Below, piece by piece: positions 2,491-15,165 of a DNA stretch of 15,175 nucleotides. The notes beneath the pieces are model-generated. The model was given only the letters and a program-made list of their open reading frames with translations, did no database searches and was not told the DNA's origin. Source of the stretch: Bacteroidales bacterium. GTDB taxonomy: Bacteria; Bacteroidota; Bacteroidia; Bacteroidales; Azobacteroidaceae. Positions within the stretch are counted from its first letter, which is position 1. Each line of letters starts with the position of its first letter. Location of the stretch: the NCBI GenBank assembly GCA_020860885.1, contig JAJBTS010000262.1:4687-19861 (forward strand), given 5' to 3'. Both the position numbers and the translations under genes were made by a program.

Positions 2491-3136
2491 ATGAAAGTTT
2501 GTATATTAGCCGATAAACAATTTATTACCAGCGAGGGGATTGCTGCTGTTCTCCGGAGAATGGGGATAGACACCTTTTTTCGGGTAGAAACAGTAAAAGA
2601 ATTGCAGGATAAATTAATGTCTTACCCGGATGCTTTGGTGATACTTGATTATACTTTGTTCGACTTTGTGTCCGTACAGCAAATGTTGAACCTCAAATAT
2701 GCCTCGAAATATTCTGCATGGCTCCTTTTTTCGGAAGAACTGGGGAAACATTTTTTACGTTATATCCTTATTACAGAGCCTTCAATAAGCATAGTGATGA
2801 AACATGATTCCCGGAAAGAGATAGAAAGCGCTTTGAGGCATCTTATCGATAACATACCTTATATATGCGAATCGGCTGAAATGATTTTGAATGATGTACC
2901 CCCCAGTTGACGATACGTCTTCTATTGTTCTTACTGCATCAGAAAAAGTGGTTTTGCATGAAATTGCTTTAGGGAAAACGACCAAAGAGATTGCCTATGA
3001 GAAGAACCTGAGTTTCCATACCGTAAATACGCATCGGAAAAATATATTCCGTAAGTTGGAGATCAACAATATGCACGAAGCTATAAAATATGCTATCCGG
3101 GCAGGAATTATCGATGTAGCGGAGTACAACATATAA
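2491..3136 (+). pseudogene. LuxR/NarL-type response regulator, split by a +1 frameshift in a C6 tract
   Basis: The first frame (2491-2910, 139 aa) is a complete receiver-like domain with acidic D8, a phospho-acceptor candidate D53 in LVILDYTLFDF, and a conserved-type lysine in IVMKHDS. The second frame (2891-3136) encodes a full LuxR helix-turn-helix: LTASEKVVLHEIALGKTTKEI, then the recognition part SFHTVNTHRKNIFRKL. Both domains look intact, but the first frame stops just after GTA followed by six Cs at 2899-2904. Removing one C gives VPPVDDTSS and a single protein of 215 residues, the usual size for this family. The second frame also has its own ATG at 2891, overlapping the first by 20 bases, so separate or coupled translation is possible. 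A sequencing error, a real mutation, slipped-strand phase variation and +1 slippage at CCC-CCC-A all fit. No sensor kinase is adjacent. The target is unknown; divergent cysK is one candidate. Confidence 0.8.
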
Positions 3137-4310: not shown

Positions 4311-6185
4311 TTAAATATTCAGACTTATACCACCCATCACCGTAGCCCGTGGCATCGGATAACCTAGGATGGTTTCGTAGCTTCGGGCTGTCAGGTTATC
4401 ACCTTTGACAAAAATATCGAGCCATTTCAAAGCTTTGTACGAGGCACGTGCATCTACAAGTATGTAACTGCTGGTCTGCGGATTGTCTCCGATGGTCAGA
4501 TAGAGTTTGTTAATTGCCTGTGTACCTGTACTGAAAGAAAATTTGCCTGGGTTGTAAGTGATGCCTGCATAGAATTTATGACGAGGTGCGCCGATTATCA
4601 CGTTATCCATGTGCAGGTAGCTGTAATTGCTATGTACGGCAAGGTTATCGAGTATTTGATAATTCAGGCTGAATTCTACGCCTTTGTTGGTGAATTCGCC
4701 TGTATTTCTCAGTTCACTAAATCCTTCAGTGATCTGTGTGCTTGTTATAATATTATCACCTTTCATATAAAACACGGTGAGTTCGGTATTTATACGGTTT
4801 TCCAGAAATCCCTGCGATACAGTGAAATCGTAACTCCAGCTATTTTCGGGATCGAGTTCCTCATTGGAGGTAGGATACATATACAACTCGCGCATATTCG
4901 GGGTACGGAAACCTTTTGATACGGATAGTTTCAGATTGGTGTTGTCGGCAGCTTTCAAGGAAAAGCCTGCCTGTGGAATAAATTCTGTGCCGTATAGTTT
5001 ATGGTTTTCCACACGCAATCCTACTTCAAACATAGATCTGCCGAGTTTTTGCTGTGCAAGGACGTATCCTGCTATTTCGTGCAGCTTTACATGATCGGCA
5101 TAAATGCGTTCGCCACGATAAGCATTGCCCCCGTAAAGTTTCATATCGAAACCTCCGGTTAGTACGATATTGTCATACACATTATACGTCTGATAAATAT
5201 TCACTCCGGCCATATAATCTGTGGACATAAAAAGGTATTGCTGCGGGTTCTCTCCGGTTGAATACCCGTCATTTATCTCATGATCGCCCCAGTTATAGAA
5301 AAAGTTAGCAGCTCCGCTGGTAGCGCCATAATTATTTTCGATGGAGAGCCCCGACATACCTCTAAGAACATCGGCTTTCGCATCAAAAACAGGTTCGTTT
5401 ATTCTTCCGGGGTTCTGGGATTTGGACTTGGCTATATTTACATTTCCGGTAATTTTCCATTCTTTGTTTAATTCATAACCCAATTTTCCATATCCGCTAA
5501 ATGACTTAAAACCCATATCGGAACGGTGTCCGTCGGTTTGTTCGTAATTACCGCTGAATACCCCTGAAAATCGTCCGTTGCGATAGCTGTCGGTTAAAGT
5601 ATACCGTTGTGTACCGTAAGAACCTCCCATTAAACGGGCGGAAAGTCGGTTTCCGTCTTCCAACGCCCTGCGGGTGATAATGTTAATAGCTCCTCCCATA
5701 GCATTTGAGCCGTACAGGATAGATGCCGAACCGCGCGAAACCTCTACCCGTTGGGCTTCGGATGCAATATAAGCATCCGCCACCGGATGCCCGTATATGG
5801 TGGCATATTGCGGATGTCCGTCAATGAGGATGAGTACACGTCCTGCACCACCGGAAAAACCATGCAGGTTAATTCCGCCTGCCGAACCTTCCGAGACGCC
5901 ATATCCGGTTATACCCCGCGATGTTACAAACAGGCTGGGTACATGCTTCATCAGTACCGGGAGTAGGTTTGTTTCATCGCTGCGTTCAATGGTTGTGCGG
6001 TTTATAACGCTTACGGGAACAGGAATGATCTCTCTTTCAACAGGTATTCTTGACCCTGTTACTACCACTTCATCAAGATTGTAAGAACTTGCTGTACGGG
6101 TGGTATCGGGTTGATGCCCATTCTGGGCATGTGAAATCGATGTTATTAAAACTAAACTGACTATTGTAATAATTATTCTTTTCAT
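4311..6185 (-). CDS. TonB-dependent outer membrane receptor (BtuB/CirA-like size)
   Basis: A 624-residue outer membrane transporter with a signal peptide (1-20, cleavage after SHA) and a TonB box at DEVVVTGSR (38-46). The plug domain ends in the typical SILYGSNAMGGAINIITR, followed by a beta-barrel with alternating aromatic strands and the usual SKGFRTPNMRELYMYP segment. It ends ATVMGGISLNI, so the last residue is isoleucine rather than the common phenylalanine. It lacks the carboxypeptidase-like N-terminal extension of SusC proteins and there is no SusD partner, so it belongs to the simple siderophore/cobalamin/metal-type class; the substrate cannot be told from sequence. AAGGAG abuts the ATG directly with no spacer, which is unusual. 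It pairs with the DUF362 lipoprotein downstream. Confidence 0.93.
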   Translation of the reverse strand: MKRIIITIVSLVLITSISHAQNGHQPDTTRTASSYNLDEVVVTGSRIPVEREIIPVPVSVINRTTIERSDETNLLPVLMKHVPSLFVTSRGITGYGVSEGSAGGINLHGFSGGAGRVLILIDGHPQYATIYGHPVADAYIASEAQRVEVSRGSASILYGSNAMGGAINIITRRALEDGNRLSARLMGGSYGTQRYTLTDSYRNGRFSGVFSGNYEQTDGHRSDMGFKSFSGYGKLGYELNKEWKITGNVNIAKSKSQNPGRINEPVFDAKADVLRGMSGLSIENNYGATSGAANFFYNWGDHEINDGYSTGENPQQYLFMSTDYMAGVNIYQTYNVYDNIVLTGGFDMKLYGGNAYRGERIYADHVKLHEIAGYVLAQQKLGRSMFEVGLRVENHKLYGTEFIPQAGFSLKAADNTNLKLSVSKGFRTPNMRELYMYPTSNEELDPENSWSYDFTVSQGFLENRINTELTVFYMKGDNIITSTQITEGFSELRNTGEFTNKGVEFSLNYQILDNLAVHSNYSYLHMDNVIIGAPRHKFYAGITYNPGKFSFSTGTQAINKLYLTIGDNPQTSSYILVDARASYKALKWLDIFVKGDNLTARSYETILGYPMPRATVMGGISLNI

Positions 6186-6294: not shown

Positions 6295-7341
6295 TTATTT
6301 CAGGTACTGCTTAAAGAAAGAATCCAGTTTATCGAACGGAATAATGTCCGTACGATCGTACAGATCCACATGACTGGCTCCGGGAATAATCATCAGTTCC
6401 TTGTTGTCGCCTTTAAGCTTTTTATATGCATCTTCTCCGAAATAACGGGAATGGGCTTTTTCTCCGTGAACGATAAGTACGGCGTTACGGATTTCTCCCG
6501 CATAAGTGAGTTGCGGCATGTTGATAAAAGAGAGTGGCGATGTCACGTTCCAGCCGTTATTGGAATTAAGCGAACGGGGATGATAGCCGCGCTCGGTCTT
6601 GTAATAGCTGTGATAGTCTTTTACGAACTGCGGAGCATCGTCGGGCAACGGGTCTACCACACCGCCGCCCAGTGCATAGGTCCCGTTTTTAGCATCTATT
6701 GTACGTTGTGCATTAAGCTGCTCGCGGAGTTGATAACGTTGATCGGCATCCATTGCGTCGAAATAACCGTTTGCATTCACACGGCTCATGTCGTACATGG
6801 TCGATGCTACGGTTGCTTTGATGCGAATGTCCATGGCAGCAGCATTGATTGCCAGACCTCCCCATCCACAAATACCGATGATTCCAATCCGGTTGGGATC
6901 TACATTATCCTGCAGGGAAAGGAAATCTACCGCTGCGCTGAAATCTTCGGTGTTGATATCCGGCGAGGCTACATAGCGGGGTTCTCCGCCGCTTTCTCCT
7001 GTGTAAGAAGGATCAAAAGCCAATGCTATAAATCCTCGTTCGGCCATCTGATTGGCATACAATCCCGAAGGCTGTTCTTTTACCGCACCGAAAGGTCCAC
7101 TTACGGCGATTGCAGCTAATTTACCTGAAGCGTTTTTAGGTGTATACAAATCTCCGGTCAATGTAATTCCATACCGGTTCTTAAAAGTTACTTTCTGGCG
7201 GGTAACCTGATCACTTAACTGGAAAGTGTATTCTTCTGCTGTTCTCATATTTACTGAATTTTGATTGTTGTTATTATTTTGAGCGTAGGCTTGCCCTAAA
7301 ATCATAAGAGCGGCGGCTACTAAAAGGCTTATTTTTTTCAT
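6295..7341 (-). CDS. exported alpha/beta hydrolase, dienelactone-hydrolase-like
   Basis: A 348-residue alpha/beta hydrolase with an N-terminal signal peptide (1-20, ending AYA before QNNNNNQN), so it is periplasmic or otherwise exported. The strand with the oxyanion region is AAIAVSGPFGAVKEQPSGLYA. The nucleophile elbow is GICGWGG with a cysteine nucleophile (C158) instead of serine, as in dienelactone hydrolases. The catalytic histidine is probably H324 in IPGASHVDLYD. The usual acid position is ambiguous, because VLIVHGEKAHS has no aspartate at the common place. The family acts on esters, lactones or similar carbonyl compounds; the substrate is unknown. A low-complexity asparagine run (22-26) follows the signal peptide. 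The gene has its own upstream operator-like element and -7 box, so it probably starts a transcript that may continue into the receptor gene 109 bp downstream. Confidence 0.88.
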   Translation of the reverse strand: MKKISLLVAAALMILGQAYAQNNNNNQNSVNMRTAEEYTFQLSDQVTRQKVTFKNRYGITLTGDLYTPKNASGKLAAIAVSGPFGAVKEQPSGLYANQMAERGFIALAFDPSYTGESGGEPRYVASPDINTEDFSAAVDFLSLQDNVDPNRIGIIGICGWGGLAINAAAMDIRIKATVASTMYDMSRVNANGYFDAMDADQRYQLREQLNAQRTIDAKNGTYALGGGVVDPLPDDAPQFVKDYHSYYKTERGYHPRSLNSNNGWNVTSPLSFINMPQLTYAGEIRNAVLIVHGEKAHSRYFGEDAYKKLKGDNKELMIIPGASHVDLYDRTDIIPFDKLDSFFKQYLK

Positions 7342-7384: not shown

Positions 7385-7392
7385 CAAAGTTA
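7385..7392 (-). promoter_or_regulatory. -7 promoter box for the exported hydrolase
   Basis: On the minus strand this reads TAACTTTG, an exact TAnnTTTG match, 43 bases upstream of the ATG. No TTTG occurs at -33. A 22-bp element shared with another promoter of the block starts 21 bases upstream, which suggests activator-dependent initiation. Confidence 0.6.
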
Positions 7393-7413
7393 GAGATAAT
7401 TGATAATTGATTG

Positions 7414-7435
7414 TTTGTTGAGAGGTTCAAATTCT
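7414..7435 (-). promoter_or_regulatory. operator-like 22-bp element, copy 2 (upstream of the hydrolase)
   Basis: On the minus strand the element fits AGWATTTGAMCCT, two variable bases, CARCAAA. It matches the copy at 11013-11034 at 17 of 22 positions and has the same 21-base distance to its -7 box. AraC-type activators commonly bind asymmetric sites just upstream of the -35 or -33 region, so a regulator of that class is the natural candidate (inference). Confidence 0.6.
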
Positions 7436-7452
7436 TTCGTTGAAAAGCTCAT

Positions 7453-8946
7453 TTAATACCAATCGTGTTTTTCATTTTTATTAAGCGCATTAATTCTGTT
7501 CATTTCATCTCCTGTCAGTTCAAAATCGAATATGGAAATATTTTCCTCAATGTGGGCCGGATTGCTTGAGCCCGGAATGACAACTACACCTTTCTGCAAA
7601 TCCCATCTTAAAATCACTTGAGCGGAAGATTTGCCATGGGCTTTCGCTATTCCCGTTATCACGGGATCATTGAATAAGGCTGCCGTATACCCTCTGCCGC
7701 CCAGTGGATACCATGCTTCGACCACAATTCCTTCTTTGTGCATATATTCGATTACCTTTGTATCCTGATAATAGGGATGAATCTCGTTTTGTACGAGTGC
7801 CGGACGAATGCTTATTTGCGGCAGGAATTCGCTCATTTCTTTAATGTAATAATTCGAGAGTCCGATAGAGCGGATCTTCCCTGCTGCTACAGCTCTTTCC
7901 ATTGCTTTATAGGCTGCAACGTCATTTGAGCCGGGATGATGAAGAAGCATCAGGTCGATATATTCAAGGTCAAGTTTCTGCAATGCCAGCTCGATAGCGT
8001 TTTCCGCATCGGCAAATTGGTTGGGGTAGAGTTTGGTGCAGACAAATATCTCTTCGCGGGGAATGCCTGACTCACGTACGGCTTTGCCGACGCTCTCTTC
8101 GTTGTGATACATATTAGCGGTATCAATCTTGCGGAAGCCCCTTTGCAAGGCTGCTTTTATGGAACTAACGCATACATCTCCCAAAAGGCTGTATGTACCT
8201 AGTCCGACAATCGGCATATCATATCCGCTACTTAGCCTTATAGTGGGGGCTTTTCCGTTTTCTTCTTTCGATAAGTCAAACATTCCTGAGTTATTTTGAT
8301 TATTATTTAATTCGAGTGTTTCAAGCCATGTTTTTACCAAACCCTGAGCGCTTGCAACCTGGGATGCTCTTATCCAGAGGGCTTCGCCTGTATAGGTGGA
8401 GCCGGAACATAAGCGTTTGGCATCGGCAACAACGGATGAAATTCCACTGCTGTTGCTGGTTACCGCCAGGGCTATCTGTTTTCCTTTGAGTTTCTCGCTG
8501 TGGCTGTTCAGGAAAGACTGCATAGGTGTTGCCATACGGGTGTACCACAACGGAACGCAAATAAATACTATGTCGTAATCGTCGAAGTTGTCGACTGTTG
8601 TCGTAATGGACGGATAAGTACCATTGCTATCAATTGCGCTTATTTCTCCGCGTGCCCTTATAAGAGTTTCGTCGTAATCAGACGGGTAGGCGGTTGTAGG
8701 TACTACTTCGATGATTGTACCGTCTGTTTGCGTCTGGATTTCGTTTGCCACACTTCTTGTATTTCCACTGCGTGAAAAATATAGAATGAGAGAACTTCTG
8801 TTACCGGGTTGGGGTTCAGGTTCAGGCGCCGGCTCCGGATTCGGTGCCGGTATTTCCGTACCTAAGGGATCATCGTCGGTACTACAGGCTCCGGCTGTCA
8901 ACGCAAAACCCGTGAATAAAATGATGTACAACATACGAACTTTCAT
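7453..8946 (-). CDS. lipoprotein fusion: flavodoxin domain + aldo/keto reductase
   Basis: A 497-residue fusion. Residues 1-21 are a lipoprotein signal with lipid cysteine C21, followed by STDDDP, close to the acidic Bacteroidetes surface-export signal. Residues 27-48 are a Pro-Glu-rich tether. A flavodoxin-like domain spans about 52-212, with the FMN phosphate loop FSRSGNTR (57-64) and aromatic contacts in VPLWYTRM (131-138). From about 232 comes an aldo/keto reductase with tetrad D275, Y280, K305 and H336, plus the NADPH-site region IPGSSNP. The reductase needs cytoplasmic NADPH, which conflicts with surface anchoring. The linker ELNNNQNNSGMFDL looks like an old spacer: AAT-rich, then AGGA directly before M222 at 8283. 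Starting there would give a 276-residue soluble reductase, the normal family length. Both domains are certain; how the fusion is expressed is not. A likely role is reduction of reactive carbonyls or quinones. Confidence 0.9.
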   Translation of the reverse strand: MKVRMLYIILFTGFALTAGACSTDDDPLGTEIPAPNPEPAPEPEPQPGNRSSLILYFSRSGNTRSVANEIQTQTDGTIIEVVPTTAYPSDYDETLIRARGEISAIDSNGTYPSITTTVDNFDDYDIVFICVPLWYTRMATPMQSFLNSHSEKLKGKQIALAVTSNSSGISSVVADAKRLCSGSTYTGEALWIRASQVASAQGLVKTWLETLELNNNQNNSGMFDLSKEENGKAPTIRLSSGYDMPIVGLGTYSLLGDVCVSSIKAALQRGFRKIDTANMYHNEESVGKAVRESGIPREEIFVCTKLYPNQFADAENAIELALQKLDLEYIDLMLLHHPGSNDVAAYKAMERAVAAGKIRSIGLSNYYIKEMSEFLPQISIRPALVQNEIHPYYQDTKVIEYMHKEGIVVEAWYPLGGRGYTAALFNDPVITGIAKAHGKSSAQVILRWDLQKGVVVIPGSSNPAHIEENISIFDFELTGDEMNRINALNKNEKHDWY

Positions 8947-9017
8947 AAATCTTTTTATTTTTAATGTATAAATTTATTGCAGTGAAATACATACCTTCCT
9001 GGTTGCATTTCCATTCT

Positions 9018-9042
9018 AAGTTTCAAGCATAAACTGAAACTT
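9018..9042. promoter_or_regulatory. 8-bp inverted repeat in the spacer before the flavodoxin-reductase gene
   Basis: AAGTTTCA and TGAAACTT are perfect 8-bp arms separated by 9 bases, starting 14 bases past the EamA stop codon. No T tract follows on the minus strand, so it is a poor terminator. It could be an operator for the fusion gene or an mRNA hairpin. No convincing TAnnTTTG box is seen downstream of it. Confidence 0.35.
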
Positions 9043-9055
9043 TCGGCTTATAATC

Positions 9056-9985
9056 TTACTTTGGCTTGATAGCATTTCGATTGTAATTAAATTTATTTAT
9101 TAGCATCACACTTAAAAGGATTACAATCAAACCGGCAATCTGTATCCATGTTACGTCTTCCTTTCCAAGAAACATTCCCAGGAACACAGCTATAAAAGGA
9201 TTAACGTAGGCATGTGTGGCGACTTCCGTTGCAGGACGCACTTTGAGCAGCCATACGTAGGCGGAATATGCCATAATGGAACCGAATGTTATTAAATAGG
9301 CCAAAGAAAGCCATGATGTTGTCGGAACGGCCTTTAAATCTGTATTCATTATATCACCATTCATCGTTGCACATATCCAGAATGCAGCGCTTGCAAAAAG
9401 CATTTGCCATGCCGAACCGGCAAAAGCATTTATTTCTTCCTCACCCGAGGAACGGTATTTGGCATACAGTGTTCCTAATGCCCAGGAAATGCAACCGATA
9501 AGAAGTAACAATACTCCATATTCCCGGTGATTCTCTTCAGCACTGTCGTAACTAAACTGTTCGATATAAAGCATCATCACTCCCAGAAAACCGATAACGA
9601 TACCGAGGATAACCGCAGGACTGCGGAAGTTTTTCTTCCACATCGGAACGTCCAATGCCATAATCCAAATAGCGGTGGAACTGGCAATAATAGCCACAAG
9701 GCTGCTACTGACGTATTTTTGAGCCAGCATGACTACCGCCATATCAATAAATAAAAGTACGATGCCGCTGACGGCTGATTTCTTAACCAGGCTTTTTTTG
9801 AATACGGGTTCTCCCTTGTGCCAGCACCAAAGTAATAATATTAATCCCGCAGTGGTAAAACGGAAAGCGCCCAATAGAAATGGCGGTAGTCCTTTCAAAG
9901 CTACCCCTATAAAGTAATAGGTGGACCCCCAGACTACATAAATCAGGAAATAGGCAATGATGATATTTAATTTCCGCGCTTCCAT
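9056..9985 (-). CDS. EamA/RhaT family inner membrane transporter (drug/metabolite exporter)
   Basis: A 309-residue member of the drug/metabolite transporter superfamily, with about ten hydrophobic segments arranged as two EamA repeats (about 10-140 and 157-298). The first helix carries the family-typical VVWGSTYYFIGVALKGLPPFLLGAFRF region, and the second repeat ends TWIQIAGLIVILLSVMLINKF. The closest type I recognise is the YedA/RhaT-like group; substrates of such proteins include amino acids and other metabolites and cannot be assigned here. It is preceded by AGAGGA immediately before the ATG. In the context of two reductases and a hydrolase it most likely exports a product or toxic metabolite (inference). 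The gap to the DUF3737 gene upstream is 84 bp. Confidence 0.9.
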   Translation of the reverse strand: MEARKLNIIIAYFLIYVVWGSTYYFIGVALKGLPPFLLGAFRFTTAGLILLLWCWHKGEPVFKKSLVKKSAVSGIVLLFIDMAVVMLAQKYVSSSLVAIIASSTAIWIMALDVPMWKKNFRSPAVILGIVIGFLGVMMLYIEQFSYDSAEENHREYGVLLLLIGCISWALGTLYAKYRSSGEEEINAFAGSAWQMLFASAAFWICATMNGDIMNTDLKAVPTTSWLSLAYLITFGSIMAYSAYVWLLKVRPATEVATHAYVNPFIAVFLGMFLGKEDVTWIQIAGLIVILLSVMLINKFNYNRNAIKPK

Positions 9986-9999
9986 TCCTCTTTTTAAGT

Positions 10000-10068
10000 T
10001 TATTCTCCGAATTGGGTTCTTATTTTCTTTAATGCTCGTATTAACCGGTCGCGTTGGGTGGCAATGAT
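10000..10068 (-). other. possible coding remnant without a start codon between DUF3737 and EamA genes
   Basis: In the minus-strand frame ending at TAA 10000-10002 the spacer reads as a basic amphipathic helix, IIATQRDRLIRALKKIRT followed by QFGE and stop. No ATG lies in frame; the frame opens at a TTG inside the DUF3737 3' end. It could be the tail of a deleted gene or chance. I do not recognise the family. Confidence 0.2.
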
Positions 10069-10069
10069 T

Positions 10070-10936
10070 TTACGATGCGATACACGCTTCTTTCTTCGTG
10101 CTGATTTTACAACCTTCAGGATTCTTACAGTTCTTGTCAATAATTACTTCACCTACGCTATTGCATATCACCCATCCGTTTGTTGGGTTCTTGATGCTGG
10201 TGATGTTGCTGTTTACCTGAGCTTCTAACGTGCTGTACTCGAATGCCAGGTCACAGTCTTCAGCCATGGTACAGTTCTCCATTATCAGGTTGGTACAGTA
10301 ACACAGTGGTTGAGTTCCGGATATCTTGCAGTTCACGAGTTTGAGATTTTTGGAGTGCCAGCCGAGGTATTCACCGTTCAGTTCGGAATCGTACACAGTA
10401 ACATTTTCTGTTTTCCAGAAAGCATCTTTGGAATCTAATCTTGCGTTGCGGATTACTACATTCCTGGCATCCTGGAAAGAATAATTTCCTTGCAAGTAAA
10501 AACCATCGATGTCGATGTTGATACCATTCATAAAGATATAATCCCCACCACGGGCTTCAACATTGTGAAGTTTCATGTCCCGGCAATTCCAAAGGGTTTC
10601 TCCTGCTGAAGTCAGTTTAACGTTTTCTAAGTACAATCCGTCTATTTCGCGGAACATTTTAGGAGCTTCTACTTTTGAGTTTATCATACTCACATTCTTC
10701 GAATACCAAATAGCCGCACGGCTGTAAACCGTAAACAAACAATCTTCGATCTGTGCATTCTCATTGTGCCAGAAGGGGTATTTGCACATGAATTCGCTTT
10801 TGTATGCCTGAATGTTCTTACATTCTTTTAATGCCGATTCGCCAGGATAGAATTTAACGTTTTCAAGGCGGATATCGTTGGTTGCAAATAGGGGTCTTTC
10901 TCCCTCAAAAAAGGTGTCTTTAATTACTTCTTTCAT
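10070..10936 (-). CDS. DUF3737 family protein (right-handed beta-helix type)
   Basis: A 288-residue DUF3737 protein (PF12541). The sequence is a series of roughly 19-22 residue turns with recurring patterns such as LENVKFYPGESALKECKNI, AIWYSKNVSMINSKVEA and AFWKTENVTVYDSELNG, as expected for a parallel beta-helix. There is no signal peptide or membrane segment, so it is probably cytoplasmic. The family has no proven biochemical function. From general knowledge of gene neighbourhoods it is often found near flavodoxin, aldo/keto reductase and AraC- or MerR-type regulator genes, and the layout here repeats that link. The C-terminal tail NCKNPEGCKISTKKEACIAS, with three cysteines, looks like an extension beyond the repeat region. 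The gene has its own promoter element upstream. Confidence 0.9.
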   Translation of the reverse strand: MKEVIKDTFFEGERPLFATNDIRLENVKFYPGESALKECKNIQAYKSEFMCKYPFWHNENAQIEDCLFTVYSRAAIWYSKNVSMINSKVEAPKMFREIDGLYLENVKLTSAGETLWNCRDMKLHNVEARGGDYIFMNGINIDIDGFYLQGNYSFQDARNVVIRNARLDSKDAFWKTENVTVYDSELNGEYLGWHSKNLKLVNCKISGTQPLCYCTNLIMENCTMAEDCDLAFEYSTLEAQVNSNITSIKNPTNGWVICNSVGEVIIDKNCKNPEGCKISTKKEACIAS

Positions 10937-10983
10937 CTTATTAATTTTTTATTGTTATTCAGATCAATCTTTTATAGATTATA

Positions 10984-10991
10984 CAAATGTA
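10984..10991 (-). promoter_or_regulatory. -7 promoter box for the DUF3737 gene
   Basis: On the minus strand this reads TACATTTG, an exact TAnnTTTG match, 47 bases upstream of the ATG. A TTTG at the standard -33 spacing is lacking. The operator-like element starts 21 bases upstream. Confidence 0.6.
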
Positions 10992-11012
10992 GGGGTAACT
11001 GATTAGATATAA

Positions 11013-11034
11013 TTTGCTGTCAGGGTCAAATACT
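11013..11034 (-). promoter_or_regulatory. operator-like 22-bp element, copy 1 (upstream of DUF3737)
   Basis: This minus-strand element matches copy 2 (7414-7435) at 17 of 22 positions: AGTATTTGACCCT, GA, CAGCAAA here. The 51-base span from element to the end of the -7 box is exactly the same length at both sites, and the bases between are not conserved. That pattern fits a regulator site selected at fixed helical phase. It lies in the 130-bp spacer after the DUF418 gene. Confidence 0.6.
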
Positions 11035-14400: not shown

Positions 14401-15165
14401 TTAATTTAGAGGTGAAAATCCGTATTGTCTTTCGAAGGCTTTTATAAAACGTACTACATCTTTGTAGCTCACTTCAATATAAATATCGGCCACCTTTTCT
14501 CCCTGCTGCATTTTTGTGTAAGCCGTTTCCAGTTTTTTAGATATAATCCATAAGGAATGGGAGGCCCCTTCATTTTCGCCCAAACGAACCATACTTGTAT
14601 AATTCTGGTTCAGAAATTTCATGATGTCGTCTTTCCAGAGCTTGCAGCAGTCGAACAGACAAGGGTAAAAACGCTCGTCGAGCAATAATAATCCCAGTAC
14701 GGCTTCCATCATTTTTATTTCCAGTATGGGCTGCATGGGTTTGAGATTGTCTTTCAGGTAAGGCAACATCGATATATAGATACTATCGAGATAGGGGTTT
14801 TTCGTTAGTTCAATCACATTTTTCTGAAATTTTTCGTTAGTTTCCGGCATTTTGTTTTTATTCATGTTCCGGTAGAACTCCCGCAGAAAACTAATACTGA
14901 GTCCCATAAATACACTGCGAAAGGGTTCGTTCTTCAGTGATTTCCTGACCAGCAAGGTATTTACATCTTTCCGGAGAAAGATATACTCTCCCTTGCCGAC
15001 CGTTACTGTAAGGTCGTGATAATATACGGTTAGTTCGCCTGAAAAGACAAATATTAGTACATGCTCGGGGCAGTTGCGTAAATTATCCGTATCCTTTTGA
15101 AAGAAATATTTTGAAAAAATATCTGAATAGTTGTATATCGGATATTCTCTGTTATCCGGCTTCAT
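14401..15165 (-). CDS. AraC family regulator with an aberrant first helix-turn-helix
   Basis: A 254-residue transcription factor and first gene of the block. The N-terminal part (about 1-110) is a cupin-like effector domain: strands HVLIFVFSGELTVYYHD and GKGEYIFLRKD. The second helix-turn-helix is normal, VADIYIEVSYKDVVRFIKAFERQYGFSP (225-252). The first one is not: between FLNQNY (184-189) and WIISKKLETAY (206-216) only 16 residues remain, SMVRLGENEGASHSL, without the usual LA-x3-G-x-S-x-x-x-F-x-R-x-F pattern. From memory of the family about 34 residues are expected there, so roughly 18 are missing, in frame; 254 residues is correspondingly short. DNA binding may be weakened or rely on the second motif. 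It probably controls, or once controlled, the downstream genes and could bind the 22-bp elements. The promoter lies outside the window. Confidence 0.85.
   Translation of the reverse strand: MKPDNREYPIYNYSDIFSKYFFQKDTDNLRNCPEHVLIFVFSGELTVYYHDLTVTVGKGEYIFLRKDVNTLLVRKSLKNEPFRSVFMGLSISFLREFYRNMNKNKMPETNEKFQKNVIELTKNPYLDSIYISMLPYLKDNLKPMQPILEIKMMEAVLGLLLLDERFYPCLFDCCKLWKDDIMKFLNQNYTSMVRLGENEGASHSLWIISKKLETAYTKMQQGEKVADIYIEVSYKDVVRFIKAFERQYGFSPLN

Follow-up and report, generated by a model that had tools for sequence, protein, structure and literature searches.

Which regulator reads an element shared by two promoters of one gene cluster? The question is raised by a 15,175-nucleotide stretch from a Bacteroidales bacterium of the family Azobacteroidaceae (GCA_020860885.1, contig JAJBTS010000262.1, forward-strand positions 4,687 to 19,861; hereafter the window), in which an exported hydrolase gene and a DUF3737 gene are both read from minus-strand promoters carrying a similar 22-mer. 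The initial annotation had reported that the two copies, AGAATTTGAACCTCTCAACAAA (7435-7414) and AGTATTTGACCCTGACAGCAAA (11034-11013), are identical at 17 of 22 positions and that exactly 21 bases separate each of them from a downstream -7 box, TAACTTTG (7392-7385) or TACATTTG (10991-10984); the coordinates and the fixed spacing both proved exact. It had also named the AraC regulator heading the cluster as the candidate reader. Our analysis indicates that the 22-mer is one half of a tandem operator that very probably serves AraC-type activators, and that the AraC-like protein of the window is more likely a partner of the activator than the activator itself.

The 22-mer comprises only the promoter-proximal half of the element. 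In both promoters a second half lies directly upstream at a pitch of 22 bp, giving the layout TGARCYTNNNARCRAA - N6 - TGARCYTNNNARCRAA, then 21 bases, then TAnnTTTG (Table 1). Within the window's own genome the 22-mer consensus has no further match at fewer than three mismatches; at three mismatches it has five more, compared with four for the reversed control, so that on its own the 22-mer has only moderate specificity. Among these five, the match on contig C355 alone belongs to a tandem. The genome-wide search that had been proposed for the 22-mer thus barely rises above its control for the single element, but for the element as half of a tandem it goes far beyond chance. At three or fewer mismatches the genome holds two tandem places in the window and one each on contigs C346, C355, C370 and C94.

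The spacing of the two halves was examined in related loci, using a half-site consensus that was made by eye and partly from the same sites. With summed mismatches of six or fewer, a pitch of 22 gave 31 matches and each other pitch from 17 to 32 gave 0-2; with four or fewer, the counts were 25 and 0 elsewhere. Because one place sat in three overlapping loci, the 31 and 25 matches represent 29 and 23 distinct places. The arrangement returned by this test, a pair of direct half-sites separated by about two turns of the helix, is that of AraC/XylS tandem operators. In a column count over 23 sites, the TG, C and AA of the first half and the G, C and AA of the second are present in 23/23, while TAnnTTTG aligns 21 bases further on, with the A and the first T of the box in 22/23.

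Blind genome scans were performed with a 38-base pattern that excluded the -7 box, and the reversed pattern served as control. At three or fewer mismatches, 45 genomes of the family yielded 13 places in 7 genomes and no control match. At two or fewer mismatches, 25 places in 14 genomes were found among 393 genomes of the order Bacteroidales, with a single control match. Among 395 genomes of the phylum there were 10 places in 6 genomes, five of the places and one of the genomes being the window's own, and again no match to the control. The family matches in G015 and G034, at three mismatches, were judged to be chance occurrences; they lack the -7 box, and neither genome has an AraC match.

The box itself is a common sequence, with 24 matches to TAnnTTTG in the window against 15.3 expected. 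At the order places outside the window's own genome (non-own places) it falls at exactly +21 in 17 of 20, compared with a background of 0.00083 per position; of the other three, one has the box at +23, one carries TAATTTTA at +21 and the last lacks a box. Among the five non-own phylum places the box is at +21 in three, at +22 in one and absent from one. With starts predicted from the box, the 21-base offset in the 17/20 places puts the proximal half-site at the -33/-35 position. The sigma-ABfr promoter is described, in the portion of the source consulted, as TAnnTTTG at -7 with TTTG near -33 (PMC7366714). Compared with this consensus, both window promoters have the -7 element and a 21-base spacer without TTTG, in agreement with the earlier observation that neither possesses a standard -33 TTTG.

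To relate the operator to a protein, kin of the window AraC-like protein were collected with that protein as query, at E<=1e-3 in the family (some matches partial, the weakest at 7.6e-4) and at E<=1e-15 in the order, with six or fewer candidates scored per genome. Carriers of this AraC subfamily amount to 8 of 45 family genomes and 30 of 393 order genomes. All five family genomes with sites at two or fewer mismatches are carriers (p = 5e-5, kinship disregarded here and below), as are five of the seven with sites at three or fewer. Within the order, the subfamily is present in 13 of the 14 tandem-bearing genomes (p = 2e-15) and, with the own genome left out, in 12 of 13 (p = 3e-14). Full-length members lie within the fetched flank of 13 of the 20 non-own sites, and four loci (L032, L115, L116 and L119) have AraC genes whose stop codon, TGA, coincides with the first TGA of the operator.

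The association extends to genomes in which no strict site was found. When 17 AraC loci from such genomes, one per genome, were scored with the site matrix, nine reached 9.0-51.6, compared with a maximum of 2.3 for 44 reversed control loci, and six of the nine have TAnnTTTG at +21. A proximal half-site followed by 21 bases and TAnnTTTG stands upstream of 17 of 41 AraC-family genes, two of which lack the first helix-turn-helix unit (HTH1), versus 29 of 940 other open reading frames (ORFs) of at least 150 amino acids; the first fraction is biased upward because the loci were partly fetched through their sites. In 14 of these 17 genes the distal copy has at least five mismatches of 13. The operator reads as belonging to this AraC subfamily, with a weaker version for autoregulation. 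Co-occurrence and adjacency thus favor the earlier suggestion that an AraC-type activator reads the shared operator.

The AraC-like protein that heads the window cluster does not appear to be this reader. Alignment with 33 kin revealed that it is missing about 19 residues, present in all 33, which hold the HTH1 recognition helix, and that its second unit (HTH2) departs from theirs at positions that hardly vary otherwise; the gap leaves the reading frame open. A structural model (mean pLDDT, the per-residue confidence score, 80.6; residues 191-200 below 50) contains the N-terminal domain, a linker helix and an HTH2-like pair, with no HTH1. By alignment and model alike, the protein lacks the first of the two HTH units of a DNA-binding AraC/XylS member, and a sequence search of solved structures with it gave no match. 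Because HTH1 is missing and HTH2 is degenerate, the protein is probably not the reader, and its proposed role as a DNA binder is not supported. Its architecture would better suit a brake or partner of the true activator, which we consider more likely than its being the activator itself.

The window protein is not alone in this architecture. The ExsA_N domain (PF22200) is present in it and in proteins of L026, L035 (short) and L130 (short). Protein searches recovered 21 further window-like proteins of 217-270 residues and 10 shorter relatives of 176-198 residues that have ExsA_N alone by precomputed Pfam. Twenty-eight HTH1-less rows, namely the window protein, the 21 window-like proteins, four of the 10 short ones and the short L035 and L130 proteins, form one clade in a tree against the 33 kin with HTH1 (support 100/99). 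Conservation in the window-like group (22 rows) is 0.66-0.68 for the N-terminal domain and 0.26 at the place of HTH1. A second HTH-less AraC-like protein of 193 residues lies directly before a full-length AraC gene in genome G833 (L203:2251-2832); it joins the clade weakly (support 40) and may be a separate loss. In 12 genomes of the family of G378, no HTH1-less gene was recognizable apart from that of G378 itself. The subfamily also has broken AraC-like genes, spread over more than one frame, at L057:7560-8200 and L111:2029-2507.

Full-length AraC paralogues are encoded in the same genome on contigs C346, C355 and C94, each beside a tandem site. The C346 gene has the tandem upstream, with CATCTTTG at +21. 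Its product scores above the Pfam cut-off for ExsA_N, HTH_18 and HTH_AraC and its model (pLDDT 87.9) contains two HTH units, so that it combines the ligand/dimerization domain and the paired HTH units of an AraC/XylS regulator. A fold search, for which the full-length model was the only query, gave ToxT as the best match (E 7.6e-12), along with Rns and the ExsA regulatory domain 4zua (TM score 0.77 by target). The subfamily proteins that were aligned end to end are 254-285 residues long, and those scanned show ExsA_N and HTH domains only. The activator in the window genome is most likely the C346 paralogue, the orthologue (84% identical) of the full-length AraC in the orthologous locus L202, and not the AraC-like protein of the window, which has lost HTH1 and whose kin in three related loci themselves stand behind the operator.

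The same components recur together in orthologous loci. Locus L202, from the genome that is also the source of L036 (G833), encodes an 81%-identical orthologue of the window HTH1-less protein and a full-length AraC protein 84% identical to that of C346. Its order is full-length AraC, a tandem operator with TAATTTTG at +21, the HTH1-less gene and RibD (69%); a second tandem operator, also with TAATTTTG at +21, about 0.5 kb before an MFS gene (90%); and a third, with GAACTTTG at +21, before the hydrolase (92%), a TonB receptor (77%) and DUF362 (92%). L035 and L130 share the order full-length AraC, operator, HTH-less AraC and RibD. The operator predicted before the window HTH1-less gene is out of view because the contig ends 10 bases upstream of the gene. 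When the window hydrolase promoter was compared with those of L202, L040 and L042, the operator was identical at 31-33 of 38 positions and the 60 bases upstream at 17-20 of 60. The conservation upstream of orthologues that had been expected of the element is thus seen at the hydrolase promoter. At DUF3737 just 9 of 44 loci have the tandem at three or fewer mismatches; the operator therefore follows the regulator and not DUF3737. Inspection by eye of the upstream sequences of 43 DUF3737 loci gave no common element, and DUF3737 was found in 1 of 45 family genomes.

The scarcity of the tandem at DUF3737 loci is one of several points that weigh against assigning the operator to the AraC subfamily. 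In the hydrolase comparison partial conservation extends to the spacer (12-14 of 21) and to the stretch of 40 bases that follows the box (24 of 40). Seven of the 20 non-own sites have no subfamily AraC gene in the fetched flank, some of them on short contigs, and no subfamily member was found in one tandem-bearing genome, G102. Eight of the 17 AraC loci that were scored with the site matrix do not rise above control, three of the nine high scorers lack TAnnTTTG at +21, and 24 of the 41 AraC-family genes have no half-site before themselves. Several paralogues with similar HTH units share one genome, and more than one of them may act at a given site. The co-occurrence p values ignore kinship, with sites in 9 of 206 genera and the AraC subfamily in 19 of 206, and the two-mismatch limit of the order scan, like the E-value limit of the order search for AraC kin, was our own choice; that search scored six or fewer candidates per genome.

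Sequence comparison shows the tandem with its pitch, conservation, constant distance from the box and co-occurrence with the AraC subfamily, and from these we infer that an AraC protein binds and activates at the tandem. Weighing these observations, we judge it probable that the tandem is the operator of ExsA_N-type AraC activators working in class II mode at TAnnTTTG, with the C346 paralogue as the likely activator and the HTH1-less protein as its putative feedback partner. Two monomers of the full-length AraC protein would bind the two direct repeats of TGARCYTNNNARCRAA, which at 22 bp apart lie on about the same face of the helix. If the -7 box is taken as approximately -11 to -4, the proximal half-site would span about -48 to -33 and would replace the missing -33 TTTG, so that the bound activator could recruit RNA polymerase to TAnnTTTG. 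The HTH1-less protein, which keeps its N-terminal domain, is most likely a feedback partner that would pair with the full-length activator or compete for its ligand. We are more tentative, with doubt slightly outweighing belief, about a fuller version in which the clade lost HTH1, probably once, kept the N-terminal sensing and dimerizing domain and became a partner controlled by the regulon; the activator would then switch on its own disarmed copy, through a tandem operator lying just past the activator gene, as a built-in brake, acting as heterodimer or ligand sink, on a redox or detoxification regulon.

Could the window AraC-like protein nevertheless bind the operator as its direct regulator, through the remaining HTH2 or as a heterodimer? 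It heads the cluster, retains a DIYxEVxYK-like remnant of HTH2 and has a weak Pfam HTH_18 match (25.8 bits compared with a cut-off of 33.6, precomputed in 3 of the 21 closest kin). The loss of HTH1, the existence within the same clade of a short branch (176-198 residues) that lacks HTH units altogether (10 proteins by Pfam; four of these and the L035 and L130 proteins by alignment) and the presence of full-length paralogues beside tandem sites in the same genome make this very unlikely. A different, unlinked regulator, with the AraC subfamily merely co-inherited with the cluster, would accommodate the seven non-own sites without a nearby AraC gene; however, the subfamily's presence in all but one of the 14 tandem-bearing genomes among 393, the enrichment of the proximal half-site before AraC-family genes over other ORFs and the precedent of AraC-type sites built from direct repeats at two helical turns leave it quite unlikely. 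For the HTH1-less proteins, decay into pseudogenes without function is suggested by the poor conservation at the place of HTH1 relative to the N-terminal domain and by the L057 copy, which is broken across frames. We consider it unlikely for the group, as 28 rows fall in one clade, whole proteins are predicted for the window and for P0002-P0022 and P0023-P0032, the N-terminal domain is well conserved and the placing of operator, HTH1-less gene and RibD is the same in L035, L130 and L202.

Base pairing around the operator bears on one further alternative, that the proximal repeat serves chiefly as a terminator arm for the upstream gene rather than as a protein site. At 14 of 41 sites, L032, L035, L116, L122 and L130 among them and near-copies being counted separately, pairing of the proximal half-site with the spacer is better than that with 200 shuffled spacers (p<0.05). 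The other 27, including both window sites, fall short of p 0.05, and a terminator leaves both the direct repeat at 22 bp and the constant 21-base distance to the -7 box unexplained, so that this explanation of the repeat is extremely improbable. At the stem-bearing sites a terminator of the upstream gene overlapping the operator is probable. We also considered, and dropped, a third protein site in inverted orientation between operator and box; the terminator fits better because unconserved bases pair too in several stem-bearing sites. A T-rich stretch follows in several of the stem-bearing operators.

The proposed system resembles several known ones. In the part of the literature source available, ExsA of Pseudomonas aeruginosa, an AraC/XylS family member, binds a site overlapping the -35 region and, through its N-terminal domain, brings in a second monomer at an upstream site that is less conserved (PMC12648661). 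The subfamily shares with ExsA the ExsA_N domain and the match of the full-length model to 4zua. It differs in half-site sequence, in a Bacteroidales promoter with a -7 box and no -33 element, in having an HTH1-less paralogue under the operator and in that the scan of downstream genes gave no secretion genes. The operators of AraC-type hybrid two-component systems (HTCS) and of RhaR in Bacteroides likewise have direct repeats spaced by roughly two turns of the helix, for which the sections consulted give an average of 21 bp (PMC3878776) and a 21-bp periodicity (PMC3870299). Here, in contrast, the pitch is exactly 22, the targets are non-sugar genes and the regulators are one-component ExsA_N proteins that have no membrane sensor, nor the histidine kinase and receiver fused to the AraC domain of an HTCS. 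In the ANR family, of which the excerpt consulted describes Aar from enteroaggregative E. coli, an AraC-type activator switches on a protein that turns the activator down in return (PMC4038620). By analogy, the HTH1-less proteins are proposed as activator-induced negative partners; unlike ANR proteins, they are paralogues of the activator itself, forming one clade beside it.

The claim that no operator of this form had been described holds for this sequence in the literature searched, and needs narrowing for the form, as AraC-type direct repeats of about 21 bp are on record in Bacteroides in the passages of PMC3878776 and PMC3870299 that we consulted. Within the literature searched, the operator sequence appears new, while AraC-type tandem operators as such were already known; an HTH1-less partner clade under the operator of a sister activator likewise appears new, its function being proposed. 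No relevant title on HTH1-less AraC clades or on AraC proteins without a DNA-binding domain was met in the literature searched, nor was DUF3737. The analysis supplies a concrete 38-base operator, a promoter geometry and a candidate regulon for a one-component Bacteroidales AraC subfamily, none of which was found in that literature, and gives DUF3737 and its neighbors a candidate context of control. HTH1-less AraC paralogues under a sister activator's operator represent a possible built-in feedback device, and they caution that the nearest AraC-annotated gene need not be the regulator.

The genes downstream of the operators suggest what may be controlled. Among 20 such genes, Pfam identified redox enzymes (aldo/keto reductases, flavodoxins, SDR and Zn-alcohol dehydrogenase) together with CMD, cupin, alpha/beta hydrolases, hexapeptide transferases and a cyclophilin-like protein; five further genes encode DUF418, a hydrolase, an aldo/keto reductase, an Fe-alcohol dehydrogenase and a protein without a family. 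By these families the regulon looks like a redox or detoxification response. No secretion family that would point to type III secretion control was found by Pfam among 27 first downstream proteins, covering a subset of sites. A single gene at window positions 7453-8946 fuses a flavodoxin domain to an aldo/keto reductase, two functions that related loci encode in distinct genes behind the operator. The features of the window that bear on the operator are collected in Table 1.

Table 1. Operator elements, target genes and the AraC-like gene, in window positions
Feature	Position	Strand	Basis
Exported alpha/beta hydrolase (PETase/dienelactone hydrolase-like), target gene	6295..7341	-	Pfam; L202 orthologue (92%) also behind tandem
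Hydrolase -7 box TAACTTTG	7385..7392	-	21 bases from operator
Proximal half-site, hydrolase operator, TGAACCTCTCAACAAA, core of earlier 22-mer	7414..7429	-	Pattern scan and orthologous-promoter comparison
Distal half-site, hydrolase operator, TGAGCTTTTCAACGAA	7436..7451	-	Tandem scan, 0 mismatches to 38-mer pattern; kept in orthologous promoter of L202, L040, L042
DUF3737 gene, first gene downstream of operator	10070..10936	-	Pfam PF12541
DUF3737 -7 box TACATTTG	10984..10991	-	21 bases from operator
Proximal half-site, DUF3737 operator, TGACCCTGACAGCAAA	11013..11028	-	Direct reading and pattern scan
Distal half-site, DUF3737 operator, TGAGCTTAAGAACAAA	11035..11050	-	Tandem scan
RibD_C-type reductase, adjoins HTH1-less AraC gene in window, L035, L130, L202	13647..14363	-	Pfam and locus comparison
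AraC-like protein, ExsA_N, without HTH1 (~19 residues), degenerate HTH2; probably not DNA reader	14401..15165	-	Pfam, alignment, model, tree

Two minor observations were made. The DUF3737 protein of L067, on a contig titled Vibrio sp. HA2012, is 64% identical to that of the window, which suggests transfer between phyla. At window positions 2491-3136, two ORFs overlap by 20 bases in different frames; by eye they look like parts of a single response-regulator-type gene, LuxR-like at its end, that a frame change has split.

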